DNA of 64,000 bases from the NCBI RefSeq assembly GCF_045679555.1, contig NC_092087.1:88434966-88498965 (forward strand). Direction: 5' to 3'. This DNA comes from Salvelinus alpinus (taxonomy: Eukaryota > Chordata > Actinopteri > Salmoniformes > Salmonidae). Below the pieces are notes generated by a model. The model was not told the DNA's origin. It saw nothing but the letters and a program-made list of their open reading frames with translations, and searched no databases. A program made the position numbers and the translations under genes. Shown here in pieces: positions 1-36,022 of the stretch; position 1 is the stretch's first letter; each line of letters starts with the position of its first letter.

Positions 1-11
1 GGTTTGTTTCC
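1..11 (-). CDS. Gene A transmembrane exon, first 11 bases only
   Basis: The window opens with the complement of GGGAAACAAACC, preceded on the minus strand by TTTATTATAG. The same junction opens the transmembrane exon of gene C at 22694. The encoded residues begin G-K-Q-T in phase 1. The rest of the exon lies before base 1. Confidence 0.7.
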
Positions 12-3000: not shown

Positions 3001-5675
3001 CATGTACTCACATCTGACAGTGAGAGTCTCTTCTGGAGAGAGGATTCTCTCTAAGCCTTTTACAGCACAGGAGTAGTTCCCTGCATCCTCACTGCTGACT
3101 GGGTCTAGGATCAGACTGTTATAACTGGTGACTGGGTCTAGGATCAGACTGTTATAACTGGTGACTGGGTTGGTTAGACGTTGTCTGTGCTTGTACCAGA
3201 TGTAGTTGGGGTTGAGACCGACTGTACATTTGGTTCTACATCTCAGTGTGACTCTCTCCCCCTCTGACACAGACGTAGGATCCATCTCCAACAGGATATC
3301 TAAGAGGAAACATCAGTCATATTTGACTCCAGACAGACTTGTCATGTGATTAGACTTGTCCTATTACAGTACTAACTGTAGGTGGACTATTACCTGTGAC
3401 AGTCAACATCACACCAGGAAGGCCAGAAAATCTCCCCTTATTTGTTGTTAGTAATCTGAATTTGTATTCAGCCGAGTCATTCTCTGTCAGGTGTGTTATT
3501 GTCATGGTGTGGTGGTTCTCTGTGTTTCTATGGTACTCCACACGACCTATATACTCTGGATATGAACTGAGATCTACAGGGTGTTTCTGTGTAAACCAGA
3601 AGGAACCTTGTTCTATATAACTAGTGGGATGAGTGTAAGAGCAGGGTATGTCCACTGTGGAGCCCTTCAAGACACAGATTCTCCTCTTGGTGTAAGTCAC
3701 CCTCCAGCAGTTGTGACCCTGAGCACCTGAAACATAGAGGCTCTCTGTTAATAGTTTTAACTTGTCATGTTTCTTTAGGTGCAAAGTAAAGAAGTTAACT
3801 GTTCATTTCAAGTCGTTTCAGTATAAATCATAACCATTTGAGCTGTTGGTATTGCTAGAGTGAAACACTGTGTTTGAATCAACACTTTTTTTCCCACTCA
3901 CACACTGCAGGAGAGCGGAGAACCTCATGACCTTTTACAGCACAGGAGAAGCTGTCTTCATAGTTACTGGAGACTGAGTCTTTGTACTTGGGGGAGATGC
4001 TCTCATCTAGATGTTGTCCGTTCTTGTACCAGATGTATGTGGGGTTACCAGTCAGAGTACAGGTGGTTTTACAGGTCAGTTTGTAGTAATATATCCTCTC
4101 CACCTTTAGATCTGAAGGGAGAGGATATGAAACAATAATGGAGGAAGTCTGTCAGCCACCACCATTTCACTGTTCTCATAGAACATGTAATAAATGACTT
4201 GTACTATACTATTTATTCAGTACCTGTGAGACTGAGAGGGAATCCATATGAGCCATATTTCCATTCTGAATACTGGTTTATTTTATATCTGAAGTAATAT
4301 GTTGCTATGTCTCTCTCTCTCAGGTCTGTGATTCTCAGGATGCAGTCCTTCTCTGTAGTTCCATGGTACTCCACACGACCTTCATAATTAGGGTCCCATC
4401 TCAGATCATAAGTCTTACCATTCAACTGTGTGTTATACCAGACCATCTCTGTGACTTGGGTCACACTGGGAATAGGACAGCGCAGGTCCACTGATGACCC
4501 CTTTAAGGCACAGACACTCATCACAGTATATTGCCTCAGAACACCTGAAACACAGTGTCACAGGACTCAACCATGAGAGAACTTCATTTGTGACGTCAAG
4601 ACTATAAAGAAACAGACATTACAATATTACATCAAAATGCATGTAAACATGTGTAGCTGTACTATACTATACTGTACTACTATACTGTAGGACCCATCTA
4701 CTCAAATGTACATTCCCTTATATCATTCTAGTATTCATTTCAATATACATCATGGAAGTAAAAAGCACTAGTGGCCAGGGTAGGGGTCAATCCCGTTTAA
4801 ATTCCAGTCAATTCAGTAAAACAAATTACAATTCCACATTTTCTAAATGTTCCTAATTGAAAAGCATTGAAAATAATTGGAATTGGAATTTCAGTCTACT
4901 TCCTGAATTGAGTGGAATTGAGATGGAATTGACCCCAACCCTGCTGGTGGTTGACAACATTCTTATTCTGCTACTGCTGCTGATGTGCAGAAGTGTGAAT
5001 GGAAACCAGAGATAAGCATCACTCAGTGAGGTGTGAAGTATAACTATTTAATGGTGGAGACACCTAACAGAACACACAATGTAACGGTCGTTTTCCTCCT
5101 CGTCTGAGGAGGAGCAAGGATCGGACCAAAATGCAGCGCATTGTGAAGATATAATCTCGTTTATTTAAACGAAGACGAAAAACACTTGAACAAACTACAA
5201 AATAACAAACGACGTGAACAGACCTGAACTTGAGAACAAAAACACATGAACGAACGAACAGGAAGGACAACACGAACGGAACGAAACAGTTCCGTGTGGT
5301 ACAAACACTGACACAGGAACAATCACCCACAAACAAACAGTGTGGACAGCCTACCTAAATATGGTTCTCAATCAGAGGAAACGTAAAACACCTGCCCCTG
5401 ATTAAGAACCATATCAGGCTAATACAACGAACCCAACATAGAAACACATAACATAGAATGCCCACCCCAACTCACGCCCTGACCATACTAAACAAATACA
5501 AAACAAGGGAAAACAGGTCAGGAACGTGACACACAAGCTTAACATTGCAATAGTTATGCTTTTAGAAATGTCTGTAGATTGATATACAGGGCAACTAAAA
5601 CATTATGAAAGAGACCATACCTGCTACAGACCAGAGAAAGACCACCAACACACTTCCTGCTGTTCTCAAGGCCAT
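1..5675 (-). CDS. Gene A: CD22/Siglec-like Ig receptor, 3' end outside window
   Basis: This gene is a multi-exon type I membrane receptor of the fish CD22/Siglec-like family. Exons, 5' to 3' on the minus strand, are 5675-5621 (signal peptide), 4544-4224 (V), 4111-3902 (C2), 3726-3394 (V), 3299-3012 (C2), 1306-1031, 874-611 and 502-239 (three Ig domains), and 11-1 (start of the transmembrane exon). They join in frame to 674 codons up to the window edge. Every internal border has AG/GT and phase 1. The V-C2 pairs carry the extra cysteines typical of the Siglec V-C2 disulfide. The cytoplasmic tail is not in the window, so inhibitory or activating status is unknown. The gene probably acts on the surface of B cells or other leukocytes; that role is inferred from the family. 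Confidence 0.85.
239..502 (-). CDS. Gene A Ig domain 3 (membrane-proximal)
   Basis: This 264-bp exon encodes one C2-type Ig domain. It has the B-strand VTLTCSS, the C-strand YTWYKKN and the F-strand [10 protein letters not shown], so the canonical Cys-Trp-Cys core is intact. It starts after CCACCAG and ends GTAGCAG|GTAAAG, both phase 1. The exon and its introns are nearly identical to 22911-23174 in gene C, which points to recent duplication or gene conversion. Confidence 0.85.
611..874 (-). CDS. Gene A Ig domain 2
   Basis: This 264-bp exon encodes an Ig domain with the same VTLTCSS, YTWYKKN and [10 protein letters not shown] landmarks and an N-glycosylation-like NSSS near its end. The donor is CAGT|GTAAAT; the T joins the next exon to make a tyrosine codon (V-Q-Y-G-P), a usual linker in this family. 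Phase is 1 at both ends. Confidence 0.85.
1031..1306 (-). CDS. Gene A Ig domain 1 of the membrane-proximal trio
   Basis: This 276-bp exon encodes an Ig domain. Its first half (strands A to C) is the same as in the other Ig exons, but its second half differs: [13 protein letters not shown], then the F-strand [10 protein letters not shown]. The acceptor is AACACCAG|ATGG and the donor AAAT|GTGAGT. It is 12 bases longer than its neighbours. Confidence 0.85.
1350..1750 (-). repeat. Interspersed repeat, copy 1 (about 0.4 kb)
   Basis: This intronic repeat opens with TGTAACG and a short palindrome (CCTCCTC...TGAGGAGG) and ends GGTCAGGAACGTGAC. A second copy in the same orientation lies at 5082-5533. 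I recognise it as a common non-coding salmonid repeat but cannot assign a family. No coding capacity is seen. Confidence 0.6.
1751..2970. repeat. 61-bp minisatellite, about 20 copies
   Basis: A tandem array with a 61-bp period fills the intron between the gene A C2 exon (3012) and Ig exon (1306). Each unit contains GATGTAAATTAGTATAGATT followed by ACACTGACATGTAGAACCAT. Copies differ by single bases, and one copy near 2160 is shortened. Confidence 0.95.
3012..3299 (-). CDS. Gene A C2 domain 2, with internal duplication
   Basis: This 288-bp exon encodes a C2-type domain with VTLRCRTKC (two cysteines), YIWYKH and the F-strand NYSCAVKG. The paired cysteines match the Siglec arrangement, in which one bonds inside the domain and one to the preceding V domain. 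A 33-bp block (3097-3129 and 3130-3162) is exactly duplicated in frame, adding 11 residues around [11 protein letters not shown] in the C' to E region. Acceptor CTCTTAG|AT, donor AGAT|GTGAGT. Confidence 0.8.
3394..3726 (-). CDS. Gene A V-set domain 2
   Basis: This 333-bp exon encodes a V-type domain. It has [14 protein letters not shown] (two B-region cysteines), FWFTQK at strand [19 protein letters not shown] over strands E and F, and a closing GVMLTVTG. There is no E-strand cysteine and no usual F-strand YxC cysteine. An arginine sits in the EYKFR motif, where Siglecs have their sialic-acid arginine. Phase is 1 at both ends. Confidence 0.85.
3902..4111 (-). CDS. Gene A C2 domain 1
   Basis: This 210-bp exon encodes the C2 domain that follows the N-terminal V domain. 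It carries [21 protein letters not shown] and the F-strand SFSCAVKG. The second cysteine of CKTTC is positioned to bond with the V domain, as in Siglecs. Acceptor CCCTTCAG|AT, donor GTGT|GTGAGT. Confidence 0.85.
4224..4544 (-). CDS. Gene A N-terminal V-set domain, Siglec-like
   Basis: This 321-bp exon encodes the membrane-distal V domain. It has [18 protein letters not shown] at strand C, a cysteine on strand E ([10 protein letters not shown]) and an arginine on strand F (TYYFRYK). Those last two features are the hallmark of Siglec V domains: a B-E intrasheet disulfide and the arginine that salt-bridges sialic acid. The other V exons in the window lack the E-strand cysteine. It is therefore the best candidate for a glycan-binding domain here. 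Confidence 0.85.
4783..4936. repeat. MITE-like repeat with inverted ends
   Basis: A 154-bp AT-rich block in the gene A signal-to-V intron begins GGGGTCAAT and ends ATTGACCCC, with further complementary AATTCCA/TGGAATT pairs inside. This looks like a short non-autonomous DNA element. No coding capacity is seen. Confidence 0.5.
5082..5533 (-). repeat. Interspersed repeat, copy 2 (about 0.45 kb)
   Basis: This is the second copy of the repeat at 1350-1750, starting TGTAACGGTCG with the same CCTCCTC...TGAGGAGG palindrome and ending GGTCAGGAACGTGAC. The flanking ACACA on both sides may be a target-site duplication. It lies in the signal-peptide intron of gene A; gene B lacks it at the matching place. 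Confidence 0.6.
5621..5675 (-). CDS. Gene A signal-peptide exon
   Basis: This 55-bp first coding exon starts at an ATG in the context CAACAATGGCC and encodes [19 protein letters not shown], a hydrophobic signal peptide. The donor is GTAGCAG|GTATGG, phase 1. The exon in gene B (35271-35325) has the same length and differs by one residue, which supports this start. Confidence 0.85.
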
Positions 5676-20180: not shown

Positions 20181-20361
20181 GCATGAATTACCTTAATGCA
20201 GAATATGCATTATTTATGACATCATCATTGTCTACTCCTCCAATGGGCATATGGCCGTAACTACATATGAGAACACTAAGATTCGGACCTTGTAATTGTT
20301 TTCTAATTAAAACTAATAATAATATCCCAATACAAATACTGTACCCAATAAAGAAAATTAA

Positions 20362-21940: not shown

Positions 21941-21954
21941 CCCCCCCCCCCCCC
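21941..21954. repeat. C14 homopolymer
   Basis: Fourteen C residues lie about 100 bases downstream of the gene C stop codon. Length is likely variable. Confidence 0.8.
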
Positions 21955-21986
21955 ACAGATTTGGTTGTAAACAAACAAACTTCACC

Positions 21987-21992
21987 TTTAAT
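21987..21992 (-). terminator. Possible polyadenylation signal of gene C
   Basis: ATTAAA on the minus strand lies about 60 bases after the TGA of gene C. This variant hexamer is a plausible cleavage signal. No other supporting element was checked. Confidence 0.3.
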
Positions 21993-22049
21993 GCTGTGTG
22001 TTCACAATGTTCTAGTATTGACTCTATGTTGTTGTAATGTAGAATATGC

Positions 22050-22289
22050 TCACTGGGTGGCAGCACTGGGGAGGTTGAATTTCACAGCAGCGTATTGGAC
22101 ATCTTGGTACTGTTTCTGTGGTTGATGCAGCTGGACGGTGGAGTACAGAGGCACTTCCTGGTTTTTGGAGCGAGAGAAGTGGACGCTGGCGTAGTGAACA
22201 TCATCCTGGTCGTCTGTGGCTGCTGTCTGTGCTGCAGTAGAGGTCATGGTCATGCCTGAGATGCTGTCATACACTGGACTAGAGTCTCC
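22050..22289 (-). CDS. Gene C last exon: cytoplasmic tail with two ITIMs
   Basis: This 240-bp exon encodes 79 residues and TGA. Tyrosine motifs in order are SPVYDSI (ITIM-like), DVHYASV (canonical V-x-Y-x-x-V), VPLYSTV (ITIM-like) and DVQYAAV (canonical). Phosphorylated ITIMs recruit SHP-type phosphatases in mammalian CD22 and Siglecs. Acceptor CTCCATCAG|GGAG, phase 0. Confidence 0.85.
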   Translation of the reverse strand, partial: GDSSPVYDSISGMTMTSTAAQTAATDDQDDVHYASVHFSRSKNQEVPLYSTVQLHQPQKQYQDVQYAAVKFNLPSAATQ

Positions 22290-25200
22290 CTGATGGAGGG
22301 AGAGAACAGACAACATGAGGAGTGGAAATGTCCCACAAAGAATACACAGTCATCACAGTCATCTTCTGATTCCAACAGACTCACCTGTCCATCATCTGCT
22401 GTGTCTCTTGTGTTGGAGGTGGATGTGGAGACCTTCCTGTTGTACATTAATGAATGTATGAAGATATCAATCAATTAATTAATAAAGTTACTTTTATTTT
22501 TATTTTTTTAACCTTTATTTAACTAGGCAATTCAGTTAAGAACAAATTCAAATTTACAATGACTAAAGTGAAATTATATAAAAAGATATGCAATCTCACT
22601 CACCTGAACCACATGAGTCCAAAGAGACAGAGGATGAGAACCAGAACAACCACTGTGATTCCTACAGCTGCAGTCATAACTGAGGTCTGTTTCCCTATAA
22701 TAAAATATGGATGATATGAGTACATGGCATGTTCTTACACATTATAGAATATCAACACAATACATGTTAATATTTTGGGATCTTATAATACTTGTGACAT
22801 CATAAGCCAACACATAATTATAAACCAAAGTGTAATCAGTCAAAACACAATGATTAAGATCAGCTTGAAACCTGTCAATTTGTATTGAAGTATTGAAGAT
22901 GTAACTTTACCTGCTACAATGATCATCAGAGCTGTAGAGTTCATAGATCCTCTTCCATTCTGGGCCTCACAGTAATATTCTCCTCTGTCCTCAGAGATGA
23001 TGTTAGTGATGCTGTAACTCTGTCCTGATGGTTTTGCTGAGGTTACATTCTTCTTGTACCAGGTGTATTTGTCCACAGGTGGGTTGGCATCACTGCTGCA
23101 GGTCAGAGTCACTGAACTGCCCTCCACTATTTCACCAGAGGGACTGACTGACACTGAGGTGTTCCTTGGACCATCTGGTGGACAATATGTAACAACAGTG
23201 TATTAAATAGTGTTTTTCTTATTATTGAAATATGAATTTAAATGTGATCCTCTGATCAAAAGATGAGGTCAGGTGTACTAACACTGAACGTCCAAAGACT
23301 CAGAAGAAGAGTTGAGACGTCCATATTTATTCTCAGCCTCACAGTAGTATTCTCCTCTGTCCTCAGAGCTGATGTTAGTGATGCTGTAACTCTGTTCCGA
23401 TGCTTTTGGTGAGTTTACATTCTTCTTGTACCAGGTGTATTTGTCCACAGGTGGGTTGGCATCACTGCTGCAGGTCAGAGTCACTGAACTGCCCTCCACT
23501 ATTTCACCAGAGGGACTGACTGACACTGAGGTGTTCTTTGGGCCATCTGGTGGACAATATGTAACACATTGTTCATACATAGTGCTTTACATGAGTAGCA
23601 TCATGGAACGTGGACTTATGATTGAAATAAGTTAAATATTACTTTAAATATGTGTGATTCTCTGATCAAAAGAAGAGAAGTTTAAGTGTATTTACACTGA
23701 ATGTCCACAGACACAGAAGAAGAGTTGAGACTCCCATATATACTCTCAGCCTCACAGTAGTATTCTCCTCTGTCCTCAGAGTTAATGTTGGTGATGAGGA
23801 ATGTGTTTTCAGATCCTGTCAGTGAAGCTCCATTCTTCTTGTACCAGGTGTATTTGTCCACAGGTGGGTTGGCATCACTGCTGCAGGTCAGAGTCACTGA
23901 ACTGCTCTCCACTATTTCACCAGAGGGACTGACTGATACTGAGGTGTTCTTTGGAGCATCTAGTAAAGCAGAATTTGTCAGAGGGTCAGGACTGTAGTAC
24001 ACTACCTCAAATGACATCATGTCAAAAATAAATGATATCTAAAGTCAGAGAACTATCTAAAACTATCACTTACACAAAACATGAACAAGAATACATTTGG
24101 AGATACTTTAGGACTTGAGTGTCTACTAAACTATTCTTCAAGTGTTTGAGGTGCTGAACATTCTAACTATAGACATACATACATCTATGACATTGTGTGT
24201 AATTTCTATGTAATGATGAATATTGATAGATAAAGCAGTAATACTCTTCTCATTGATATTAAATGATTGATACTTTCTAAGTGGAATAGTAGTTTAATTC
24301 ATACTCACACACTGCAGGAGAGTGAAGGTCCTCATGGTGTTCTACAGTACAGGAGTAACTGTCCTCAGAATGACCCAACACTACTAGGGTATTACTAGAG
24401 TATTGTTGGGGAGTAGGCTCATCGAGACGTTGTCCGTTCTTGTACCAGATGTAGGTGGGGTTGTCAGTCAGAGTACAGGAGGTGATACAGGTCAGTGTCT
24501 TCTGTCCCTCTGCAGCAGGAGTCACCTTCACCTGCAGACCTGAAACAATATGTATAAAACCACATACACCTCTGTGTTAACAGGATGGTCAATTTATTTT
24601 CTCCTGTAATTCATTATGATATAGTATTGTAAAATACAGGGTAGTATTACCTGTGACAGACAGAGTTGTTCCTGGGATACTATGACCCCATTCAAAGTTG
24701 TATGTTTTAAAAGTGAAGCGATACTCAGCTAAGTCTTCCTCTCTCAGATCTGTGATTCTCAGGGTGAAGTGACCTTTGTATGTTCCAGTGTACTCCACAC
24801 GACCTGCATACCCTGGGTCTGTGGTTAGGTCCTCAGGGGTCGACTTATCACTTCTAAACCAGAATGTTGATGTGGTGGAATAATAACCAACATAAGTACA
24901 GGATATGTCCACTGTTGACCCCTTCAAGACACAGATTCTCCTCTTGGTGTAAGTCACTCTGCTGCAGCTCTGACCCTGAACACCTGAAACACAGTGACAT
25001 AACAAGAGGTCAACTGGATTATATTCTCAGTTCTTTATAGAAATGCTAACAGTTCTCATATTACATAGTGAAACCAACACACACACAGAAATACATTTTA
25101 TACAGTTTTACAGTGATGTATTAGGGACAGATCTATTTAGTTTTTTCTATGGGGAGGATTGTGTGGTTTTTTACATTCAGCCCAGGACCTCCACATCCGG

Positions 25201-28200
25201 CTTCTTCACCTGCGGGATCATCTGAGAACAGCCACCCAGACAGCTGATGAAACTGAGGAGTATTTCTGTCTGTGATAAAACCCTTTTGTTGGGAAAACCT
25301 CAGTCTGATTGGCTGGGCCTGGTTCCCCATTGGGTGGGCCTATGCCCTCCCAAGCCACCCATGGTTGAGACCCTGCCCAGTCATGTGAAATCCATAGATT
25401 TTGGCCTAATGAATTTATTTCAATTTACTGATTTCCTTATATGAACTGTAACTCAGTAAAATGGTTGAAATTGTTGCACGTTGCGTTTATATTTTTGTTC
25501 AATATAATTGTATATGTATTTATGTAAAACATAGGGACCACAATGGAAATAAGTCCCCGACTTTATTGTACAATCCTGGTCACTTAAAAAATATTGTTTA
25601 TGTGTGTATTTTTTTAACAGACACATAAAATCAATCAGTTAATCAATCCAAACTGAGCTGCAGACATTTGATGAACAGAAAGAGACATCTGTTACAAAAC
25701 ACCAACAAGTTGAATGACATTCAGAGATTGTCAAGCCTTCAATACTGGGTAAGACTACAAGGTAGGGAGGGATGTGTTCTCTGTCCAGATTTACATTGTC
25801 TATTTATTGTGGTGTTGAAAACACAAACCATGACATTGAAGTGACTGAAGTTGGTCTGCTTTGTTTATTGGTTGTGTGCTGCATTGGTACAGAAACCTGA
25901 TGGTGGAAAATGTGTTGCATATATTTTGTTTATGATCGCAGTGTAATGGAACAGGCAGGGTGAGCTTGTCTGTGGTGGTCGGGAACCCTCAAACTTCTGG
26001 CCCGTAGCCCTACGTGGCATCGATCATGCCACAACAGCAGGATGAAGTGACAAAGTCGGTATTCACGTTTACAAATGCAGGGTCGCAACAGTTATTCTTA
26101 TTTGTGGTCGTAAACATTATTTTGAGTTAATTTTATGAGGGGGGAGGGTGTTCAATTTATTTTACAGTACAATAGGAGGGTCATGTGAAAATATTTTAAA
26201 CTTTGAAGACCAGTCCTGTCTAGTCCCCCAGAAAATGTCATTCTGTCCCTTAATAAATAAACACTCACACACTGCAGGAGAGTGGAGATCCTCATGGCCT
26301 TTTACAGCACAGGAGTAACTGTCTTCATAGTTACTGGAGACTGGGTCTTTGTACTGGGGGGAGGTGCTCTCATCTAGATGTTGTCCGTTCTTGTACCAGA
26401 TATAGATGGGGTTGGGGTTGTCAGTCAGAGTACAGGTGGTGCTACAGGACAGTGTCTTCGACTCTGATCTCCGTTTAGAAGTCACCTTCACCTGAAAACC
26501 TGAATTAAAGGAGAGCAAGAAAATGGTACATGGTTCAGAATTGGTGTGAGTTAATTATTAATGTCATGACTCTTCAAAACTGTATAATGTGGAATGCAGT
26601 GTTACCTGTGACAATCAGAGTGGTTCCAGGGAAGCTGTAACCCCATCTTGCTTCATCAGTTGTAAATATGAACTTGTACTCAGTTGAGTCACTCTCTCTC
26701 AGGTCTGTGATTCTCAGGGTGGAGTCCTTTTCTGTTTGTTGATGGTGTTCCACACGATCTGCATACTCTGAGTCCTGTCTCAGGTCTTTAGTTACTCCAG
26801 ACTCCCATTTGTTGAACCAGGATACTTCTGTGACGTTATGCCAACTGGGATGTGTGTAAAAGCATGATATGTCCACTGTTGACCCTTTCAAAGCACAGAT
26901 ACTCTGATGGGTGTAAGTCACATTCATACAGCTCTCATCCACAACACCTGAAACATAATGTAACTGATCAATTCCTGAAACGATAATGAGACTAAATGTT
27001 TTAGATGTATTGGACAGGTTCATTTTGAATTATACTTTTTTTTGTTGACATACAGTGGGGAGAACAAGTATTTGATACACTGCCGATTTTGCAGGTTTTC
27101 CTACTTACAAAGCATGTAGAGGTCTGTAATTTTTATCATAGGTACACTTCAACTGTGAGAGACGGAATCTAAAACAAAAATCCAGAAAATCACATTGTAT
27201 GATTTTTAAGTAATTCATTTGCATTTTATTGCATGACATAAGTATTTGATCACCTACCAACCAGTAAGAATTCCGGCTCTCACAGACCTGTTAGTTTTTC
27301 TTTAAGAAGCCCTCCTGTTCTCCACTCATTACCTGTATTAACTGCACCTGTTTGAACTCGTTACCTGTATAAAAGACACCTGTCCACACACTCAATCAAA
27401 CAGACTCCAACCTCTCCACAATGGCCAAGACCAGAGAGCTGTGTAAGGACATCAGGGATAAAATTGTAGACCTGCACAAGGCTGGGATGGGCTACAGGAC
27501 AATAGGCAAGCAGCTTGGTGAGAAGGCAACAACTGTTGGGGCAATTATTAGAAAATAGAAGAAAATAGAAGAAGTTCAAGATGATGGTCAATCACCCTCG
27601 GTCTGGGGCTCCATGCAAGATCTCACCTCGTGGGGCATCAATGATCATGAGGAAGGTGAGGGATCAGCCCAGAACTACACGGCAGGACCTGGTCAATGAC
27701 CTGAAGAGAGCTGGGACCACAGTCTCAAAGAAAACCATTAGTAACACACTACGCCGTCATGGATTAAAATCCTGCAGCGCACACAAGGTGCCCCTGCTCA
27801 AGCAGGCGCATGTCCAGGCCCGTCTGAAGTTTGCCAATGACCATCTGGATGATCGAGAGGAGGAATGGGAGAAGGTCATGTGGTCTGATGATTCAAAAAT
27901 AGAGCTTTTTGGTCTAAACTGCACTCGCCGTGTTTGGAGGAAGAAGAAGGATGAGTACAACCCCAAGAACACCATCCCAACCGTGGAGGTGGAAACATCA
28001 TTCTTTGGGGATGCTTTTCTGCAAAGGGGACAGGACGACTGCACCGTATTGAGGGGAGGATGGATGGGGCCATGTATTGCGAGATCTTAGCCAACAACCT
28101 CCTTCCCTCAGTAAGAGCATTGATGATGGGTCGTGGCTGGGTCTTCCAGCATGACAACGACCCGAAACACACAGCCAGGGCAACTAAGGAGTGGCTCCGT

Positions 28201-29678
28201 AAGAAGTATCTCAAGGTCCTGGAGTGGCCTAGCCAGTCTCCAGACCTGAACCCAATAGAAAATCTTTGGAGGGAGCTGAAAGTCCGTATTGCCCAGCGAC
28301 AGCCCCGAAACCTGAAGGATCTGGAGAAGGTCTGTATGGAGGAGTGGGCCAAAATCCCTGCTGCAGTGTGTGCAAACCTGGTCAAGAACTACAGGAAACG
28401 TATGATCTCTGTAATTGCAAACAAAGGATTCTGTACCAAATATTAAGTTCTGCTTTTCTGATGTATCAAATACTTATGTCATGCAATAAAATGCGAATTA
28501 ATTACTTAAAAATCATACAATGTGATTTTCGGGATTTTTGTTTTAGATTCCGTCTCTCACAGTTGAAGTGTACCTATGATAAAAATTACAGACCTCTACA
28601 TGCTTTGTAAGTAGGAAAATCGGCAAAATCGGCAGTGTATCAAATACTTGTTCTCCCCACTGTATATGTACATACATCTATAAAACTGTTTATCATTCCA
28701 ATATATATAGTTAAGATTATTGATAGAGAAAATAATACCATTCTTATTAGTTTTAAATGATACCACATAAAATTCTAGTTTCATTCAACTCACACACTGC
28801 AGGAGAGTGGTGATCCTCATGGCCTTTTACAGCACAGGAGTAACTGTCTGAATAATAACTATTGACAGAGTATTGATGGGAAGTGGGCTCATCTAGACGT
28901 TGTCTGTTCTTGTACCAGATGTAGGTGGGGTTGGGGTTGTCAGTCAGAGTACAGGTGGTGATACAGGTCAGTGTCTTCTGTCCCTCTGCAGCAGGAGTCA
29001 CCTTCACCTGCAGACCTGAAACAATATGTATAAAACCACATACACCTCTGTGTTAACAGGATGGTTAATATATTTTCTCCTGAAATTCAATATGATGTAC
29101 ATTTGTGTCATACAGTGTAGTATTACCTGTGACAGACAGAGTTGTTCCTGGGAAACTATGACCCCATTCAAAGTTGTTCGTTTTAAAAGTGAAGCGATAC
29201 TCAGCTGAGTCCTCCTCTCTCAGATCTGAGATTCTCAGGATGGAGGGACCTTTATATATCCATCTCTCTTTGTCAGGGTACTTCACACGACCTGCATACC
29301 CTGGGTCTCTGGTTAGGTCTTCAGGGGTTGACGTATCACTTCTAAACCAGAATGATGATGTGGTGTAATAATAACCAACATAAATACAGGATATGTCCAC
29401 TGTTGACCCCTTCAAGACACAGATTCTCCTCTTGATGTAAGTCACTCTGTTGCATCTCTGATCCTGAACACCTGAAACACAGTGACATAACAAGAGGACA
29501 ACTGGATTGTATTCTCAGTTCTTTCTAGAAATGCTAAAAGTTCTCAAATGACAAAGTGAAACCAACACACTGTATAATGTATTAAAGAAACACTCACACA
29601 CTGCAGGAGAGTGGAGATCCTCATGGCCTTTTACAGCACAGGAGTAACTGTCTTCATAGTTACTGGAGACTGGGTCTG
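22050..29678 (-). CDS. Gene C: ITIM-bearing CD22-like Ig receptor, 5' end missing
   Basis: Intact exons on the minus strand are 29471-29127 (V), 29015-28794 (C2), 26947-26606 (V), 26499-26269 (C2), 24983-24651 (V), 24539-24309 (C2), 23959-23696, 23546-23283 and 23174-22911 (Ig), 22694-22604 (transmembrane), 22436-22385 and 22289-22050 (tail with ITIMs, TGA). Joined, they are open and in frame over 960 codons including the stop. Upstream, the next C2 exon is truncated at 29678, and no signal-peptide exon is seen before gene B. The gene is therefore 5'-truncated, or its exons are reached from the gene B promoter. Inhibitory signalling at the leukocyte surface is inferred from the tail. Confidence 0.75.
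22385..22436 (-). CDS. Gene C juxtamembrane cytoplasmic exon
   Basis: This 52-bp exon completes an arginine codon with the transmembrane exon and encodes [17 protein letters not shown]. The acceptor is TACAACAG and the donor GGACAG|GTGAGT, phase 0 at its 3' end. Confidence 0.8.
22488..22562 (-). repeat. SINE/LINE 3'-tail fragment
   Basis: This intronic block, TTAACCTTTATTTAACTAGG followed by CAATTCAGTTAAGAAC, is the tail shared by tRNA-type SINEs and the LINE in this window, without the tRNA head. Confidence 0.55.
22604..22694 (-). CDS. Gene C transmembrane exon
   Basis: This 91-bp exon encodes [12 protein letters not shown] and then [18 protein letters not shown], a single hydrophobic span without a charged residue. 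A receptor without a basic membrane residue does not need a DAP12-type partner, which fits signalling through its own tail. Confidence 0.85.
22911..23174 (-). CDS. Gene C Ig domain 3 (membrane-proximal)
   Basis: This 264-bp Ig exon has VTLTCSS, YTWYKKN and [10 protein letters not shown]. It is almost identical to 239-502 of gene A, including its introns. Phase is 1 at both ends. Confidence 0.85.
23283..23546 (-). CDS. Gene C Ig domain 2
   Basis: This 264-bp Ig exon has the VTLTCSS, YTWYKKN and [10 protein letters not shown] landmarks and ends SLDVQ. The donor is CAGT|GTTAGT. It is the counterpart of 611-874 in gene A. Confidence 0.85.
23696..23959 (-). CDS. Gene C Ig domain 1 of the membrane-proximal trio
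   Basis: This 264-bp Ig exon has [24 protein letters not shown] and [10 protein letters not shown]. The acceptor is TTTACTAG|ATG. It has slightly more changes in the shared first half than the other copies (ESSSVTL). Confidence 0.85.
24309..24539 (-). CDS. Gene C C2 domain (third pair)
   Basis: This 231-bp exon encodes [32 protein letters not shown] and [11 protein letters not shown]. The double cysteine is as in the other C2 exons. The acceptor is TTGTTTCAG and the donor GTGT|GTGAGT. Confidence 0.85.
24651..24983 (-). CDS. Gene C V-set domain (third pair)
   Basis: This 333-bp exon has [38 protein letters not shown] and GTTLSVTG. The F-strand motif is YRFTF, with no arginine at the Siglec position, and there is no E-strand cysteine. 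Confidence 0.85.
25180..25513 (+). repeat. Internally deleted Tc1/mariner-type fragment
   Basis: This intronic block runs from GGACCTCCACATCCGGCTTC to CATGTGAAATCCATAGATTT and TATATTTTTGTTCAATATA. These are pieces of a familiar fish Tc1-type element whose central transposase part is missing here. Confidence 0.5.
25560..26160. other. Gene C intron, nothing recognised
   Basis: About 600 bases between the deleted transposon fragment and the next C2 exon. No open exon, repeat array or known element was identified. Confidence 0.5.
26269..26499 (-). CDS. Gene C C2 domain (second pair)
   Basis: This 231-bp exon encodes [36 protein letters not shown] and [11 protein letters not shown]. Its second half matches the truncated exon at 29598-29678, which identifies what that fragment once was. 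Confidence 0.85.
26606..26947 (-). CDS. Gene C V-set domain (second pair)
   Basis: This 342-bp exon encodes [39 protein letters not shown] and GTTLIVTG. There is no E-strand cysteine, and isoleucine replaces the Siglec arginine (YKFIF). Confidence 0.85.
27053..28662 (+). mobile_element. Tc1-like transposon with long inverted repeats
   Basis: A 1610-bp element lies between TA dinucleotides. Its ends begin CAGTGGGGAGAACAAGTATT and are inverted repeats of about 200 bp (27053-27262 and 28453-28662) with few differences. It sits in the gene C intron between 26947 and 28794 and carries a damaged transposase on the plus strand, opposite to the receptor gene. Confidence 0.9.
27421..28446 (+). pseudogene. 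Tc1-like transposase pseudogene
   Basis: The frame starts ATGGCCAAGACCAGAG at 27421. The N-terminal helix-turn-helix part runs to a TAG at 27556. Here a codon expected to be TGG is TAG, and GAAAATAGAA is tandemly repeated, shifting the frame. The central part resumes at 27581 ([19 protein letters not shown] with the first catalytic aspartate) until a second frameshift near 27985. The last part (from about 27985) has [16 protein letters not shown] and [11 protein letters not shown], the second aspartate and the glutamate. The catalytic residues remain but no single frame joins them. Confidence 0.85.
28794..29015 (-). CDS. Gene C C2 domain (first pair)
   Basis: This 222-bp exon encodes [32 protein letters not shown] and [11 protein letters not shown]. 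Phase is 1 at both ends. Confidence 0.85.
29127..29471 (-). CDS. Gene C V-set domain (first intact pair)
   Basis: This 345-bp exon encodes [40 protein letters not shown] and GTTLSVTG. It is a close copy of 33156-33500 in gene B. Confidence 0.85.
29598..29678 (-). pseudogene. Truncated C2 exon at the 5' edge of gene C
   Basis: Only the 3' part of a C2 exon remains: [20 protein letters not shown] and the normal GTGT|GTGAGT donor. At about 29678 the match to 26269-26499 stops abruptly and becomes repeat DNA. The B and C strands and the acceptor are gone. Confidence 0.8.
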
Positions 29679-29689
29679 TGTTTGAGTAA

Positions 29690-29800
29690 TCAACTTGACA
29701 GTAAGATTTGATTATTTGAATCAGCTGTGTAGTGCCTGGGATAAAACCAAAACATTCACCCCTTGGGGTCCCCAAGACTGAGTTGAGGAAACGCTGGCCT
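29690..29800 (-). repeat. Short dispersed repeat at the exon breakpoint
   Basis: This sequence, including CACCCCTTGGGGTCCCCAAG and GATTATTTGAATCAGCTGTG, belongs to a common salmonid dispersed repeat. A second copy lies in the other orientation at 31504-31630 (GGTTTCCCAAACTC, CCCTAGCACTACACAGCTGA). Its position suggests it caused or healed the truncation of the adjacent exon. Confidence 0.55.
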
Positions 29801-29889
29801 CGCCACTCATGGTTCAATTATTCAATGCCGCCATCATGTGTCCTAATAGGCAGAAATACAAGAAACAAGAGCTGAGTGGAAATAGTTAT

Positions 29890-30600
29890 GAATCAATGTA
29901 TTATTAGTTGATCAAATAATCTATGTATTTATTGTTGAAATGTTGATCTTATTTAAAACATGATGCTTATACTGTATTGACACTAAACCACACAGTAAAA
30001 ATTGCAAAGGTAAACATGTATTTAACGTATATAAAATACATAATAATGAAAAATGTGATGACAAAACAAGTGATATCATGACACTGAACAATATAGCATT
30101 ACGTAATATACAATTATAATTAATATAAAATGTAAAAAACTGCAAATGTTTAAATGTATGTAATGTGCTGATTACATGTTTTTAAATTTAAAAAACAATA
30201 TAATATGATAAAATATAAAACATATAATAAGTAATAATGTCTGACAGCAATACAACGTAAATCATTAAACACATCAGGGGAAACTTGTCCCAAAAGCTAA
30301 ATATATTAAAACGCTGTTATCAATATTATCCATATTAGTTGCTGTGGAAAGTAGGACTTTTGATGTTATAAATCCCTAAAATAGCAAAATCCCATCGAAA
30401 TATAATTTTAAACTATAGATAGTAAACAGATTGCTACACAAGAAAAAATATGGAAATGGAAAAATCCCATTGAAAAAAAGCAGAAGCATAACCCATCCCA
30501 TCTATCATCAAAATAAAAAAATATAATAAGAAAATAAAAAATATATTCCAGCATTTACTCAAAAGCTAAAGTTCATGGTCTGGAAAACCATCTTGTTAAG
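29890..30600. other. AT-rich intergenic stretch, nothing recognised
   Basis: About 700 bases of very AT-rich sequence between genes B and C. No signal-peptide exon, promoter or repeat family could be identified. Confidence 0.5.
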
Positions 30601-30647
30601 GTAGCAAGAGAATAGAGGTGAGAGGACTATTTTTGGATTGGAACCGT

Positions 30648-30922
30648 AGCTCTTCAGTCCAGCTTCTGTGGTGGTTCTCTTCAGTCCAGCTTCTGTGGTG
30701 GTTCTCTTCAGTCCAGCTTCTGTGGTGGTTCTCTTCAGTCCAGCTTCTGTGGTGGTTCTCTTCAGTCCAGATTCTGTGGTGGTTCTCTTCAGTCCAGGAT
30801 CTGTGGTGGTTCTCTTCAGTCCAGCTTCTGTGGTGGTTCTCTTCGGTCCAGATTCGGTGGTGGTTCTCTTTAGTCCAGGATCTGTGGTGGTTCTCTTCAG
30901 ATCAGGTTCTGTGGTGGTCTCT
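30648..30922. repeat. 27-bp minisatellite, about 10 copies, in the gene B 3' UTR
   Basis: Units contain CTTCAGTCCAGCTTCTGTGG followed by TGGTTCT. Because 27 is a multiple of three, several frames stay open on both strands. The array starts immediately after the gene B stop codon. Confidence 0.9.
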
Positions 30923-30946
30923 TCAGTGGGAGGGTCCCCTCACATT
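30923..30946 (-). CDS. Gene B terminal exon
   Basis: After the acceptor CTTTCAG, the frame reads NVRGPSH and TGA. It continues in phase 0 from the preceding exon (EYDTLG). The rest of the exon is the 27-bp repeat, untranslated. Confidence 0.75.
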   Translation of the reverse strand, partial: NVRGPSH

Positions 30947-31197
30947 CTGAAAGAAGACACTGAATTAGCAATTTACACTCCCACTAAAATGTTTATGGAC
31001 ACACACACACAAATACACTTACTCCCAGGGTGTCATACTCTGGTGACCTGGTCTTCATGTTCAGAGGTGAGTACATGTCACTGTTGGCGTCATTGTTAGG
31101 GTCAGGATGGACATTCTGTGGACAGAAAGAGGGGGAGGGAGAGAGAGAGAGGGAAAAATATAGAGAGAGGGGGAGGGAGAGAGAGGGAAAGATATAG

Positions 31198-31229
<32 letters not shown>

Positions 31230-34200
31230 AATCCATGTGTTCATTGAAACACCAGTCTTTCCATCATTTTCTCTAAACACATTCAAGTATAAAACACAAA
31301 CACACTAACAAACAATCAAAATGAATTATAAGAGACTTACTGCCAGAGTGTCGTAGTCAGGGGACATGGTCCTCATGTTCAGACCTGTGTACGTGTCACT
31401 GTTACAGTCAGGACGGACACTCTGTGGAGAGAGAGAGAGGTAACAATGAAAATAGTACGAAAGAGACTGTCGTGAAACAGTAAACTAATGAAAATGGAGT
31501 TGTAACTCAGGGTTTCCCAAACTCAGAGCTGTGCCCTGCACGTTTTGAGCTCAGAGCTGCACAATTAGTTTTTTGCCCTAGCACTACACAGCTGATTCAT
31601 ATAATCAAAGCCTGATGAGTTGTGTGTGTGTGGGGGGGGGGGGGGGGGGGGGGGGGTCCAGGTGTAACTAATAGAATCACCTGTGGTTGTTGACATTATT
31701 ACCTGTGTGTCTGCTGTGGCATCACTTCCTCCTGTGGATCTCCTGTAATGAGGGACAGAGTGAGTTCTGCTCTCAACTGACCTCTAGTGGAAGTTGATAT
31801 GTTACTAATACATTTTAGCAGGTTTCTTACTTTATCTTTATTTAACTAGGCAAGTCAGTTAAGAACAAACTCTTATTTTCAATGTCGTCCTAGGAACATT
31901 GGGTTAACTGCCTTGTTCAGGGGCGGAACGACATATTTTTATCTTGTCAGCTCAGGGATTCAATCTTGCAACCTTTCAGTTACAAGTTCAACGCTCTCAC
32001 CACTAAGCTACCTGCCACCCCAGGTGGCCTAGTGGTTAAGGGCATTGGGCCTATAACTTAATGAATGCATTAAGTTAATAACAAATCAGAGGTCTAAGGT
32101 GAAAGAATAATACAAACATCAATGTTCCCTTCTTCACTCACCTGAACCACATGAGTCCAGAGAGACAGAGGATGAGAACCAGAACAACCACTATGATTCC
32201 TACAGATGCAGTCAGAACTGAGGTCTGTTTCCCTACAATAAAATATGGATGATATGAGTACAGGCATGTAATACAAAAGTACAAAATATTTGTTAACTGA
32301 TCTAATCTCAACGTATATATAATTATAAAACAAAGTATGTTAAGCCAAAGTATAACTATTAATATTAGTTTGAAACAATTTTGTGTTGAAATATATAAGA
32401 TGAATCTTCACCTGGTAAAATGATCATCAGAGCTGTAGAGTTCCTAGATCCTCTTCCATTCCAGGCCTCACAGTGGTAATGTCCATTGTCCTTAGACTTG
32501 AAGTTACTTATGTTGTAGATCTGTCCAAATCTCAAAGTCTCATTTTGAAAGTACCAGGTGTATTTGTCCACAGGTGGGTTGGCATCACTGCTGCAGGTCA
32601 GAGTCACTGAACTGCCCTCCACTATTTCACCAGAGGGACTGACTGACACTGAGGTGTTCTTTGGTTTATCTGATGTTAAAGACCAAACATTTTGTCAGAG
32701 TAATATTAACAATTAGTAAAAAATATATTTTTGTTCTGTAATGATTGATAAAGTAAGACATGTCTCTTTTGCCTGAATATATGATACTTGCTAAGTAGAA
32801 TACTGTACTATTGTACTGTACTCACACACTGCAGGAGAGCTGAGATCCTCATGGCCTTTTACAGCACAGGAGAATGAACTGTCTTCATCCTCACTGCTGA
32901 TGGAGTACATGGGGGAGGAGTTATCTAGTACATTCCATCCATTCCTGTACCAGATGTAGGTGGGGTTGTCAGTCAGAGTACAGGTGGTGATACAGGTCAG
33001 TGTCTTCTGTCCCTCTGCAGCAGGAGTCACCTTCACCTGCAGACCTGAAACAATATGTATAAAACCACATACACCTCTGTGTTAACAGGATGGTTAATAT
33101 ATTTTCCCCTGTAATTTAATATGATTTACAGTTGTATCATACAGTGTAGTATTACCTGTGACAGACAGAGTTGTTCCTGGGAAACTATGACCCCATTCAA
33201 AGTTGTATGTTTTAAAAGTGAAGCGATACTCAGCTGAGTCCTCCTCTCTCAGATCTGTGATTCTCAGGATGGAGGGACGTTGTAAACTCCATCTCTCTTT
33301 GTCAGGGTACTTCACACGACCTGCATACACTGGGTCTGTGGTTAGGTCCTCAGGGGTCGTCGTATCACTTCTAAACCAGAATGTTGATGTGGTGTAATAA
33401 TAACTAACATAAGTACAGGATATGTCCACTGTTGACCCCTTTAAGACACAGATTCTCCTCTTGGTGTAAGTCACTCTGCTGCAGCTCTGACCATCAACAC
33501 CTGAAACACAGTGACATAACAAGAGGTCAACTGGATTATATTCTCAGTTCTTTCTAGAAATGCTAAAAGTTCTCAAATGACAAAGTGAAACAAAGACACA
33601 CAGGTTAAACAGTATTGTTAATTAAATAAACACTCACAGACTGCAGGAGAGTGGAGATCCTTATGGCCTTTTACAGCACAGGAGTAGCTGTCTGCAGCAT
33701 AAGGATAGACTGAGTAGGGTAAAGTGTTCTCAGTAACAACCTGTCCGTTCTTGTACCAGATGTAGGTGGGGTTACCAGTCAGAATACAGGTGGTGCTACA
33801 GGTCAGTGTCGTCCATGTTGGAAACTGTGAAAAAGGAGTCACCTTCACCTGCAGGTCTGGAGTAGACAACATCAACCTGAATCACCTGTTGTCTAGTGTC
33901 GTCACATGATGCAATACATTTACCCTGAAGAAGGTTGGTGTTTTTTACACAATAAATGACTGGGAGGTTATACATATGGAGTGTGTGACTCTCTTTGTTG
34001 TTATAGCTTCCAGTTTATTCTCCGTTAGTCAGCACCTCTACACTAAATACGTTTCTCTGGGTGTGTTGTTATAGCTTCCAGTTTATTCTCCGTTAGTCAG
34101 CACCTCTACACTAAATACGTTTCTCTGGGTGTGTTGTTACAGCTTCCAGTTTATTCTCCGTTAGTCAGCACCTCTACACTAAATACGTTTCTCTGGGTGT

Positions 34201-35325
34201 GTTGTTATAGCTTCCAGTTTATTCTCCGTTAGTCAGCACCTCTACACTAAATACGTTTCTCTGGGTGTGTTGTTATAGCTTCCAGTTTATTCTCCGTTAG
34301 TCAGCACCTCTACACTAAATACGTTTCTCTGGGTGTGTTGTTACAGCTTCCAGTTTATTCTCCGTTAGTCAGCACCTCTACACTAAATCAGTTTCTCTGG
34401 GTGTGTTGTTATAGCTTCCAGTTTATTCTCCGTTAGTCAGCACCTCTACACTAAATCAGTTCCTCTGGGTGTGTTGTTATAGCTTCCAGTTTATTCTCCG
34501 TTAGTCAGCACCTCTACACTAAATCAGTTTCTCTGGGTGTGCGCCAGCTCATTACTTTTATTAGATTAATACAAATCAAGACCATTTCCAGACCTAAAGG
34601 GACAATGAAGATTAAACAGAACATCAGACAATAGAATGTTACCTGTGACAGACAGAGTGACTCCAGGATCACCAGTATATTTCCCTCCGGTCTGATCTGT
34701 TATAAAGCTGAACTTGTACGTAGCTGAGTCACTCTCTCTCAGGTCTGTGATTCTCAGGGTGTGTCCATTCGTCTTATCACTACGGTACGTCAAACGACCA
34801 TAGTAGTCTGGGTCATCACTCAGACTCACAGGATTCCCCTCAGCATCATATTTAGTGAACCAGAAGGTTGTTGTGACTGTACCACTGGGATATGTGTAAG
34901 AGCAGGACAGCTCCACTGATGACCCCTTCAAGGCACAGATACTCTGAGTGGTGTATGTAACACTCCAGCCATTCTGACCCAGTACCACTGAAACACAGTT
35001 AGACATCACAAGGACGTTACATTAAGTTCAAGGTCTTTTGACTCACACTAACACTTTGTTCCATAGTTGCTGAGCTGAGACATAGATACTCTTTGGTTGA
35101 GTGTGAATGGAAACCACAGAAGCTTCACTCAGTGAGGTGTGAAGAGCAACTGTTTAAAGTGAAGTGGAGACGGAAAATGTGTCGACAGTAGAACATAAAA
35201 ATGGTTATGCTTTTAGAAATATCTGTAGTTTGACAAACTGGGCAACTAAAAGATAAGAATGAGACCATACCTGCTACAGACCAGAGAAAGACCACCAACA
35301 CACTTCCTGCTGTTCTCAAGGACAT
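30923..35325 (-). CDS. Gene B: complete CD22-like Ig receptor with ITAM-type tail
   Basis: Eleven exons join in frame: 35325-35271 (signal), 34987-34643 (V), 33856-33638 (C2), 33500-33156 (V), 33044-32826 (C2), 32669-32412 (Ig), 32232-32142 (transmembrane), 31742-31703, 31421-31341, 31115-31023 and 30946-30923 (tail). The total is 1770 bp, 589 residues plus TGA. All borders are AG/GT. The tail has two YxxL-x8-YxxL motifs and no canonical ITIM, unlike gene C. The transmembrane span has no charged residue. An activating or dual role in leukocytes is inferred from the motifs. No frame damage was seen. Confidence 0.85.
31023..31115 (-). CDS. Gene B tail exon, second ITAM-like motif
   Basis: This 93-bp exon encodes [13 protein letters not shown], then [18 protein letters not shown]. 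The two tyrosines form YSPL-x8-YDTL, with acidic residues just before each. The acceptor lies after a long CT-rich tract and the donor is GGGA|GTAAGT. It is clearly a duplicate of the exon at 31341-31421. Confidence 0.85.
31126..31230. repeat. GA/CT-rich low-complexity tract
   Basis: About 100 bases are almost pure GAGAGG on the plus strand (CT on the minus strand). It immediately precedes the acceptor of the exon at 31115 on the minus strand, so it also serves as an extended polypyrimidine tract. Confidence 0.8.
31341..31421 (-). CDS. Gene B tail exon, first ITAM-like motif
   Basis: This 81-bp exon encodes [10 protein letters not shown], then [21 protein letters not shown]-x8-YDTL fits the ITAM spacing (6-8, sometimes more, residues between the two YxxL/I), with aspartate two residues before the first tyrosine. 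Acceptor CTCCACAG, donor GCA|GTAAGT, phase 0 at both ends. Confidence 0.85.
31504..31630 (+). repeat. Short dispersed repeat (opposite orientation to 29690-29800)
   Basis: GGTTTCCCAAACTC, GCACGTTTTGAGC and CCCTAGCACTACACAGCTGA mark this common salmonid repeat. It is intronic in gene B and ends at a GT/G tract. Confidence 0.55.
31632..31656. repeat. G25 homopolymer
   Basis: Twenty-five consecutive G residues follow a short GT run inside a gene B intron, 46 bases downstream (minus strand) of the 31703-31742 exon donor. It can form G-quadruplexes; its length is probably unstable. Confidence 0.85.
31703..31742 (-). CDS. Gene B juxtamembrane cytoplasmic exon
   Basis: This 40-bp exon completes the arginine codon after the transmembrane exon and encodes [13 protein letters not shown]. 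Acceptor ATTACAG, donor ACACAG|GTAATA. It is the positional counterpart of 22385-22436 in gene C. Confidence 0.8.
31831..32016 (-). repeat. tRNA-derived SINE, near complete
   Basis: Read on the minus strand: GGTAGCTTAGTGGTGAGAGC (A box), GGTTGCAAGATTGAATCCC (B box), a body with GAACAAGGCAGTTAACCC, and the tail TTGCCTAGTTAAATAAAGAT. It lies in the gene B intron after the transmembrane exon. A partial head of a similar element follows on the plus strand at 32022-32058. Confidence 0.75.
32142..32232 (-). CDS. Gene B transmembrane exon
   Basis: This 91-bp exon encodes [12 protein letters not shown] and then [18 protein letters not shown]. It has the same length and phase as 22604-22694 in gene C and differs from it at only a few residues, although the tails differ completely downstream. 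Confidence 0.85.
32412..32669 (-). CDS. Gene B membrane-proximal Ig domain
   Basis: This 258-bp exon has VTLTCSS and YTWYFQNE, then [10 protein letters not shown]. Gene B has only one Ig exon where A and C have three. The first half is identical in core sequence to the A and C copies. Acceptor AACATCAG, donor CCAG|GTGAAG. Confidence 0.85.
32826..33044 (-). CDS. Gene B C2 domain 2
   Basis: This 219-bp exon encodes [32 protein letters not shown] and [11 protein letters not shown]. Phase is 1 at both ends. Confidence 0.85.
33156..33500 (-). CDS. Gene B V-set domain 2
   Basis: This 345-bp exon encodes [40 protein letters not shown] and GTTLSVTG. It is a near copy of 29127-29471 in gene C. Confidence 0.85.
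33638..33856 (-). CDS. Gene B C2 domain 1
   Basis: This 219-bp exon encodes [32 protein letters not shown] and [11 protein letters not shown]. Acceptor CTCCAG|ACC, donor GTCT|GTGAGT. Confidence 0.85.
33980..34545. repeat. 68-bp minisatellite, about 8 copies
   Basis: Units contain TATAGCTTCCAGTTTATTCT, CCGTTAGTCAGCACCTCTAC and GTTTCTCTGGGTGTGTTGTT. It fills the gene B intron between the first V and C2 exons. The corresponding intron of gene A has no such array. Confidence 0.95.
34643..34987 (-). CDS. Gene B N-terminal V-set domain
   Basis: This 345-bp exon encodes [40 protein letters not shown] and GVTLSVTG. There is no E-strand cysteine and no Siglec-position arginine (YKFSF). The acceptor is TGTTTCAG|TGG. 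Confidence 0.85.
35271..35325 (-). CDS. Gene B signal-peptide exon
   Basis: This 55-bp exon encodes [19 protein letters not shown]. Start and donor (GTAGCAG|GTATGG) match gene A at 5621-5675. A short out-of-frame ATG eight bases upstream could modestly reduce initiation; gene A shares it. Confidence 0.85.

Positions 35326-35866: not shown

Positions 35867-36022
<156 letters not shown>

Follow-up and report, generated by a model that had tools for sequence, protein, structure and literature searches.

A stretch of 64,000 nucleotides of the Arctic charr genome (Salvelinus alpinus, RefSeq assembly GCF_045679555.1, contig NC_092087.1, positions 88,434,966 to 88,498,965 of the forward strand), here called the window, holds three related genes with immunoglobulin (Ig) exons. 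All three, designated B, C and D, are oriented on the minus strand. The main subject of this study is gene B, whose predicted cytoplasmic tail carries two motifs of the immunoreceptor tyrosine-based activation motif (ITAM) type. Its neighbours C and D belong with tails of the opposite kind, which contain immunoreceptor tyrosine-based inhibition motifs (ITIMs). For comparison, further loci of the family, numbered L0xx, were read on the chromosome-sized contig that holds the window (C2) and, for L033, on another contig (C17); 20 of them carry ITAM exons.

Gene B and its cytoplasmic tail

Gene B is a complete predicted gene. From the leader at 35325 to the stop at 30923, its eleven exons (Table 1), with GT/AG at each internal junction, form a single open frame (590 codons with the stop counted), and its Ig exons are in phase 1 at start and end. 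The stretch around the leader (35192-35396) is 92% identical to the leader stretch of gene D. The last exon, T4, varies among the loci: it reads NVR-stop in L020 and L021 and NLRGISH-stop in L023, and it reads on differently in L018, L019 and one L024 copy. A 27-bp tandem repeat at 30650-30927, after the stop of gene B, is matched in at least 18 of the 20 ITAM loci; it was considered as a coding part of gene B and ruled out by the predicted acceptor, which leads to NVRG-x-[ST]H-stop in 13 of these loci.

Two exons, T2 and T3, each hold one Y-x2-L-x8-Y-x2-L motif. The motifs YTGL-x8-YDTL and YSPL-x8-YDTL, already reported in the preliminary description of this DNA, can now be placed exactly within T2 and T3, respectively. 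Both exons are of phase 0 on both sides, with an acceptor ending in CAG and a donor beginning with GTAAGT, and they share 74% of their nucleotides, flanks included; T3 is probably a duplicate of T2, and the pair would then have arisen by the copying of one phase-0 exon. Both motifs agree with the core ITAM pattern Y-x2-[L/I]-x6-8-Y-x2-[L/I], their spacing of x8 falling inside the x6-8 range quoted in the accessible part of PMC2832619. At position -2 of all four tyrosines stands D or P, never I, V, L or S, so that none of them fits the ITIM pattern [I/V/L/S]-x-Y-x2-[I/V/L], and the sequence favours binding of Syk over that of a phosphatase. Across the six frames of 20001-36000 there are 7 instances of the loose pattern Y-x2-[LI]-x6-8-Y-x2-[LI]; 100 dinucleotide shuffles gave 1.3 on average, and one of them came to 7. 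A narrower pattern, drawn up post hoc after the motif had been seen, asks for a spacing of 7 or 8, an acid at -1 of the second Y and an acid at -1 or -2 of the first; it occurs twice, and in none of the 100 shuffles. A comparison of the tail with PDB sequences returned a single match (E 1.5), which was judged to be a chance one.

The motifs are well kept across the family, with the reservation that copies were found by their likeness to gene B, so that broken ones are under-counted and conserved ones favoured. Among 21 full-length T2 exons, none departs at the ITAM tyrosines, at the acid preceding each of them or at the first L, and the last L is retained in 20; in 18 full-length T3 exons every Y and L is kept. 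Broken or partial copies (T2 of L009, three in L015, two in L020 and one in L021; T3 of L010, L013 and L019) were left out of this alignment. The ratio of nonsynonymous to synonymous substitution rates (dN/dS) was estimated in hand-chosen, non-overlapping pairs. The two tail exons gave 0.38 (T2; 7 pairs, P 0.048) and 0.37 (ITIM exon; 2 pairs, P 0.03), and the last I-set exon gave 0.50 (8 pairs, P 0.0045). In the first V exon the ratio was 1.06 (7 pairs, P 0.84), which is not significantly above 1. Over all pairs of unique sequences it was 0.47 for T2 and 0.27 for the 27-amino-acid form of T3. There are thus signs of purifying selection on the tail exons and not on the first V exon and, given also the invariant tyrosines, we read this as tails kept for function and a ligand-facing domain that is free, or pushed, to change. 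It could be objected that gene B is an unexpressed copy and its ITAMs relics, since birth and death of genes are evident in the family: L009, L016 and L019 contain stops, gene C is truncated (see below), and L015 has ITAM exons with no Ig or transmembrane (TM) exons in 10 kb. However, no defect was seen in the frame and splice sites of gene B, and dN/dS is below 1 for T2 and for the ITIM exon, so we regard this objection as very unlikely to be correct.

By their V domains, the genes form a CD22/Siglec-like family: the Pfam model PF24518 (Ig_CD22) scores 54.5, 57.7 and 61.2 bits in B, C and D, respectively, for a cut-off of 27. Gene D has the F-strand Arg of the Siglec V-set, as do 10 of the 15 further ITAM genes that could be read (L024, where the pattern was not found, was left out, and the pieces read of L015, L019, L023 and L028 contain no V exon). 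In gene B, the first V domain has Ser instead and neither V domain carries the Siglec-type Arg; gene C has no N-terminal V domain in which to read it. The E-strand Cys is likewise lacking in gene B (NGHTL), and it is found in gene D (KDCIL) and in 10 of the 15 other ITAM first V domains; gene D and six of these 15 genes have both residues and gene B has neither. The earlier assignment to a Siglec/CD22 type therefore fits the family better than it fits gene B, which should not itself be called a Siglec: it is a CD22-like member which has probably lost sialic-acid binding. Against PDB sequences, the V-C2 pair of gene D had sialoadhesin as its top match (E 0.0014, with antibodies close behind), and in this weak match the Arg of gene D is aligned with the FR of sialoadhesin. 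A fold search with both V models (predicted local distance difference test scores of 81 and 80) gave generic V-set matches, with no Siglec among the best 50 listed for each, and thus says nothing on the family.

The absence of a charged membrane residue, noted before for genes B and C, holds for both and extends to the loci: none of the 22 TM exons read there has one inside the span, a K being located at its outer edge. With such a span, the usual salt-bridge coupling to DAP12 or FcR-gamma is not expected.

The neighbouring ITIM genes

Gene C, as it remains, spans 29471 to 22050, with the ITIM exon last. Its tail does contain VHYASV and VQYAAV, as had been stated, and these two agree with the ITIM pattern; it also contains VPLYSTV and VYDSI, which have P at -2 (VPLYSTV, PVYDSI). 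As assembled, gene C is a 5'-truncated ITIM copy without its own leader. Missing are the leader, the first V domain and half of the exon that follows it. From 29677 downwards it is 99.0% identical to L032, save for a 1.6 kb Tc1-like insertion absent in L032; upstream of the join point, L032 continues with the rest of the C2 exon, another V exon and an in-frame leader. The window upstream of the join matches the 3' flanks of ITAM genes, at 86% to 29669 for L016 and, as far as the pieces reach, at 90% to 29722 for L017 and 95% to 29804 for L021. The place of the join is set by the match to L016 on one side and by that to L032 on the other. The insertion is a Tc1-like transposon with a broken transposase frame, at 27052-28663 in a gene C intron. 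Downstream of gene C, a decayed second copy of the ITIM exon's 3' part (82%, with stops) lies at 20091-20183.

One possible reason for this truncation, and for part of the copy number in the family, is that they are assembly artefacts. Blocks at 88.65, 89.00 and 130.94 Mb show ITAM-to-ITIM spacings of 18,921, 18,921 and 18,903 bases, and a 26.7 kb satellite adjoins. But the difference of about 1% and the 1.6 kb insertion mean that gene C is not simply the same locus as L032, and the breakpoint sits in ordinary sequence; we therefore find an artefact unlikely. Another possibility is that B and C are one transcription unit, in which the leader of B would be spliced either to the ITAM tail or on into the exons and ITIM tail of C, so that a single promoter would yield isoforms of opposite effect. 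No homologue of a leader was found between the gene C remnant and gene B (the only homologue of the gene B leader in the window is that of gene D), so that the leader of B is the nearest one upstream, and with phase-1 Ig exons a C2 exon of B could join a V exon of C in frame. Yet the four other ITIM genes whose 5' end was read (D, L029, L031 and L032) each have their own leader, which makes the state of gene C look like a local accident, and an AATAAA is located at 29933, between the stop of gene B and gene C. We give a common transcription unit hardly any credence; as a general plan for ITAM/ITIM pairs, a shared leader is ruled out by the leaders of the same four genes.

Gene D, only part of which lies within the window, is a fuller ITIM neighbour of gene B than gene C. 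Its predicted frame is open across seven Ig exons, its TM exon crosses the window edge, and its ITIM tail is found just beyond, at C2:88434332-88434568. Ten D-type V exons (87-100% identical) were found; the next tail downstream is an ITIM tail within 5 kb for six and an ITAM tail for three, and for one there is no tail within 25 kb.

Two other features of the window are a satellite array of 44-bp units (about 608 copies, 95% matches, strong GC skew) that runs from 37311 to the window end at 64000, and an open frame at 14225-15679 which resembles that of a long interspersed nuclear element, with a stretch like an endonuclease and the string GDVEVNPGP, which we take to resemble a 2A skipping peptide.

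Table 1. Exons and other features of genes B, C and D (positions in the window)
Feature	Position	Strand	Basis or remark
Gene B leader exon	35271..35325	-	open frame, GT donor
Gene B first V-like Ig exon, YKFS at the Siglec-Arg site	34643..34987	-	GT/AG, phase 1; Pfam Ig_CD22
Gene B C2-like Ig exon 1	33638..33856	-	predicted exon
Gene B second V-like Ig exon	33156..33500	-	predicted exon; Pfam
Gene B C2-like Ig exon 2	32826..33044	-	predicted exon
Gene B I-set Ig exon	32412..32669	-	predicted exon; Pfam
Gene B TM exon, membrane span without charged residue	32142..32232	-	95.6% identical to gene C TM exon
Gene B first cytoplasmic exon, T1	31703..31742	-	predicted exon
Gene B ITAM exon 1, T2, YTGL-x8-YDTL	31341..31421	-	phase 0-0, GT/AG; copies across the cluster
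Gene B ITAM exon 2, T3, YSPL-x8-YDTL	31023..31115	-	phase 0; copies across the cluster
Gene B last exon, T4, NVRGPSH and stop	30923..30946	-	NVRG-x-[ST]H-stop in 13/20 ITAM loci
Breakpoint, ITAM-gene 3' flank joined mid ITIM-gene C2 exon	29669..29681	.	L016 31018 to 29669; L032 from 29677 at 99%
Gene C 3' remnant of broken C2-like exon	29580..29681	-	97% to 26251-26352
Gene C first remaining V exon	29127..29471	-	predicted exon
Gene C C2-like exon	28794..29015	-	predicted exon
Gene C V exon 2	26606..26947	-	predicted exon
Gene C C2-like exon 2	26269..26499	-	predicted exon
Gene C V exon 3	24651..24983	-	predicted exon
Gene C C2-like exon 3	24309..24539	-	predicted exon
Gene C I-set exon 1	23696..23959	-	predicted exon
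Gene C I-set exon 2	23283..23546	-	predicted exon
Gene C I-set exon 3	22911..23174	-	predicted exon
Gene C TM exon	22604..22694	-	predicted exon
Gene C first cytoplasmic exon	22385..22436	-	predicted exon
Gene C ITIM exon: VYDSI, VHYASV, VPLYSTV, VQYAAV, stop	22050..22289	-	sequence motifs
Gene D, partial	1..5675	-	leader 5621-5675
Gene D V and C2 exons	V 4224-4544, C2 3902-4111, V 3394-3726, C2 3012-3299	-	predicted exons
Gene D I-set exons	1031-1306, 611-874, 239-502	-	predicted exons

The gene family and its two kinds of tail

The preliminary description held that genes B and C share nearly the same ectodomain and TM exons but have unrelated tails. The TM exons are indeed 95.6% identical, but for the ectodomain the statement was too strong: the best exon matches reach 93% for the second V exon, 81-84% for the C2-like exons and 85% for the I-set exon, the first V exon of gene B has only 68%, and there are five Ig exons in B versus nine in C. 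Moreover, being 5'-truncated, gene C is not the whole partner of gene B. The idea of paired ITAM/ITIM receptors with a related ectodomain and shared TM exons thus stands at the scale of the family rather than for these two neighbours.

Whole-genome counts, which are of best-scored candidates in one assembly and of exons rather than proven genes, indicate a large family. A query with both ITAM exons gave 63 matches, all on C2 and none with an internal stop; the ITIM exon gave 64 (62 on C2; 3 of the 64 with a stop) and the TM exon 93, of which 92 are on C2 and one on a further contig, C20. When the scored tail exons within 3.5 kb downstream in gene direction were recorded for the 92 TM exons on C2 (three of them at 130.9 Mb; the C20 match left out), 52 were followed by an ITIM exon, 32 by ITAM exons, 8 by neither and none by both. 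After merging of neighbouring exons, and without the copies at 130.9 Mb, there are 40 ITAM units and 59 ITIM tails across 84.60-89.33 Mb, interrupted by gaps of 0.6 and 0.8 Mb. A strict alternation of ITAM and ITIM genes is ruled out (44 runs versus a shuffled mean of 48.6, P 0.86; the matches on C17 and C20, two fragment rows of ITIM matches and the 130.9 Mb rows left out). The best 40 of 116 leader candidates were scored, and all 40 are on C2. Within 10 kb, a leader was found in 16 and a TM exon in 19 of the 20 ITAM loci, and both in all three ITIM loci read (L029, L031 and L032), where no stop was seen; the order leader, V/C2-like, I-set, TM, tail recurs across loci. L015 (C2:88532600-88542599) is a row of ITAM exon copies and fragments. 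Three alike blocks with near-equal ITAM/ITIM spacing (C2:88.64-88.67, 88.99-89.01 and 130.94-130.96 Mb, the last near the contig end) represent either recent duplication or assembly redundancy. A search of viral contigs with the I-set exon of gene B found no relatives.

Genes with opposite tails are not separated by their ectodomains. The tree built from 19 first V exons needs four label changes for its four ITIM genes, each of which stands by itself among the 15 ITAM genes; the mean for shuffled labels is 3.8, i.e. there is no clustering by tail, and the tree of I-set exons (24 rows, 5 of them ITIM) also needs four. The nearest first V exons with opposite tails are 91-96% identical (95.6% for ITIM L029 and ITAM L014). 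Homologous ectodomains precede opposite tails in L014/L029, L017/D and L011/L032; for the first and last of these pairs, megablast pieces extend from the leader through the TM exon and none lies in the tail. Since ITAM and ITIM genes are intermixed in the V tree, tails have probably been swapped repeatedly among the genes of the family. An intronless copy on another contig (L033, C17:31036600-31039000) reads V-C2-V-C2-I-TM-T1-ITIM in a single open frame, of 569 amino acids from the first ATG, which is inside the V domain; its junctions agree with those predicted for gene C, with which it shares 53% identity in the ITIM part. On the simplest reading, it is a copy of a spliced ITIM message of the gene B/C/D family.

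Gene B as a probable activating receptor

The best explanation of the whole is that gene B encodes an activating member of a large family of CD22/Siglec-like paired receptors, and we put its probability at about 80%. Ligand-driven clustering would let Src-family kinases phosphorylate the ITAMs of gene B, on which the tandem SH2 domains of Syk or ZAP70 could then dock, so that the receptor would signal without an adaptor such as DAP12. Its ITIM siblings (gene D, L029, L031 and L032), whose ectodomains are homologous and whose TM exon is of the same kind, would engage SHP-type phosphatases, and recombination at or just after the TM exon would repeatedly have set either tail behind the same kind of ectodomain. 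In the accessible part of PMC7226832, LYN, SYK, ZAP70, PTPN6 and PTPN11 are given as expressed in head kidney, gill and spleen of a salmonid, the maraena whitefish.

Several observations weigh against this explanation. Splicing of the ITAM exons is a prediction; no intronless ITAM copy was found, and no ITAM match in the genome spans both ITAM exons. A piecewise test (leader, a V exon, TM exon and both ITAM exons without a stop, exon pieces being scored rather than whole frames) was passed within 10 kb by only 10 of the 20 ITAM loci (L011, L012, L014, L017, L020, L021, L022, L025, L026 and L027), and two of these, L020 and L027, have broken Ig exons. The copy counts depend on one assembly, and some copies are duplicate-like. 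In the I-set tree, well-supported branches force only two label changes. The all-pairs dN/dS of the 31-amino-acid form of T3, 0.90, speaks against strong constraint on the whole exon, although its ITAM residues are unvarying. Finally, the strict ITAM pattern, with an acid at -3 of the first Tyr according to the available text of PMC2832619, differs from T2 and T3, which have D at -2, and the Pfam ITAM model PF02189 scores the gene B tail at 15.6 bits, below its cut-off of 22.2.

These last two points also lend something to the view that the YxxL pairs are mainly endocytic or phagocytic sorting signals (AP-2-type YxxPhi, or CEACAM3-like uptake) and not Syk-activating ITAMs. Each tyrosine of the gene B ITAM exons is part of a YxxL, and the accessible part of PMC2832619 leaves it undecided whether CEACAM ITAM-like motifs serve internalisation or activation. 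However, the x8 spacing is fixed, and paired Y and L are kept in 39 full-length exons with one change of L to V; as a lone endocytic motif needs no x8 pairing, the fixed spacing counts against sorting signals, which we consider rather improbable as the main function.

It had been remarked that a self-contained ITAM would be unusual in a chain of this type. Activating Siglecs depend on DAP proteins according to the sections available of PMC7226832 and PMC2832619, but among paired receptors a self-contained ITAM has precedents. An ITAM or ITIMs in the receptor itself are found in NILTs and in a few NITRs (PMC3022915, in part), and CEACAMs form ITIM/ITAM pairs whose likeness is kept by recombination (PMC2832619, in part). 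As far as these sources go, the NILTs of salmonids and carp resemble the present family in being multigene, in having own ITAM/ITIM tails and in their phase-0 ITIM exon, but they consist of one or two V-type Ig domains and a connecting peptide, whereas gene B has five CD22-type Ig exons and two ITAM exons. CEACAM1 and CEACAM3 similarly share ectodomain and often TM exons, with ITIMs in one and an own ITAM in the other and with recombination between them; however, CEACAM ITAMs are split by phase-0 introns, and each ITAM of the gene B family lies within one exon. The ectodomains, moreover, are CD22-type by Pfam in the gene B family. Catfish IpLITRs are also teleost activating and inhibitory receptors, but the activating one that was tested, IpLITR 2.6b, works with adaptors such as FcR-gamma (PMC4810170, in part). 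Siglec-5/Siglec-14, Siglec-11/Siglec-16 and CD22 are alike in their ITIM tails, in paired alike ectodomains and in the V-set marks that some members of the fish family show; the mammalian activating forms use DAP12 through a charged TM residue, whereas gene B has an uncharged TM span, a built-in ITAM and no Arg. FCRL1 is not a Siglec-type receptor. It has two ITAMs in its own tail (PMC12981233, in part).

Built-in ITAM and ITIM tails are therefore already known from NILTs and CEACAMs, and a CD22/Siglec-like array of this kind was not found in the literature searched, as far as its accessible parts go: among the matches listed, no title or abstract dealt with fish Siglec/CD22-like genes with their own ITAM, most subscription papers being outside reach. 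Fish have been described as regularly having only four Siglecs, without CD33-related ones (PMC7226832, in part). One may then ask whether the charr array is a Siglec-derived fish counterpart of KIR/LILR, in which at least 80 CD22/Siglec-like copies, part of them decayed, over about 4.7 Mb of one contig would use the common TM exon as a recombination hinge to swap self-contained double-ITAM and ITIM tails among fast-changing, partly sialic-acid-competent V domains; to us the answer is evenly balanced. If it is true, there would be activating Siglec-like receptors that need no DAP12, and paired Siglecs would have evolved independently in a fish, the activating motif being part of the receptor itself. 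The site of the tail swap would be marked by the TM exon that the genes have in common, and models of paired-receptor birth could be checked on dozens of copies in one genome.

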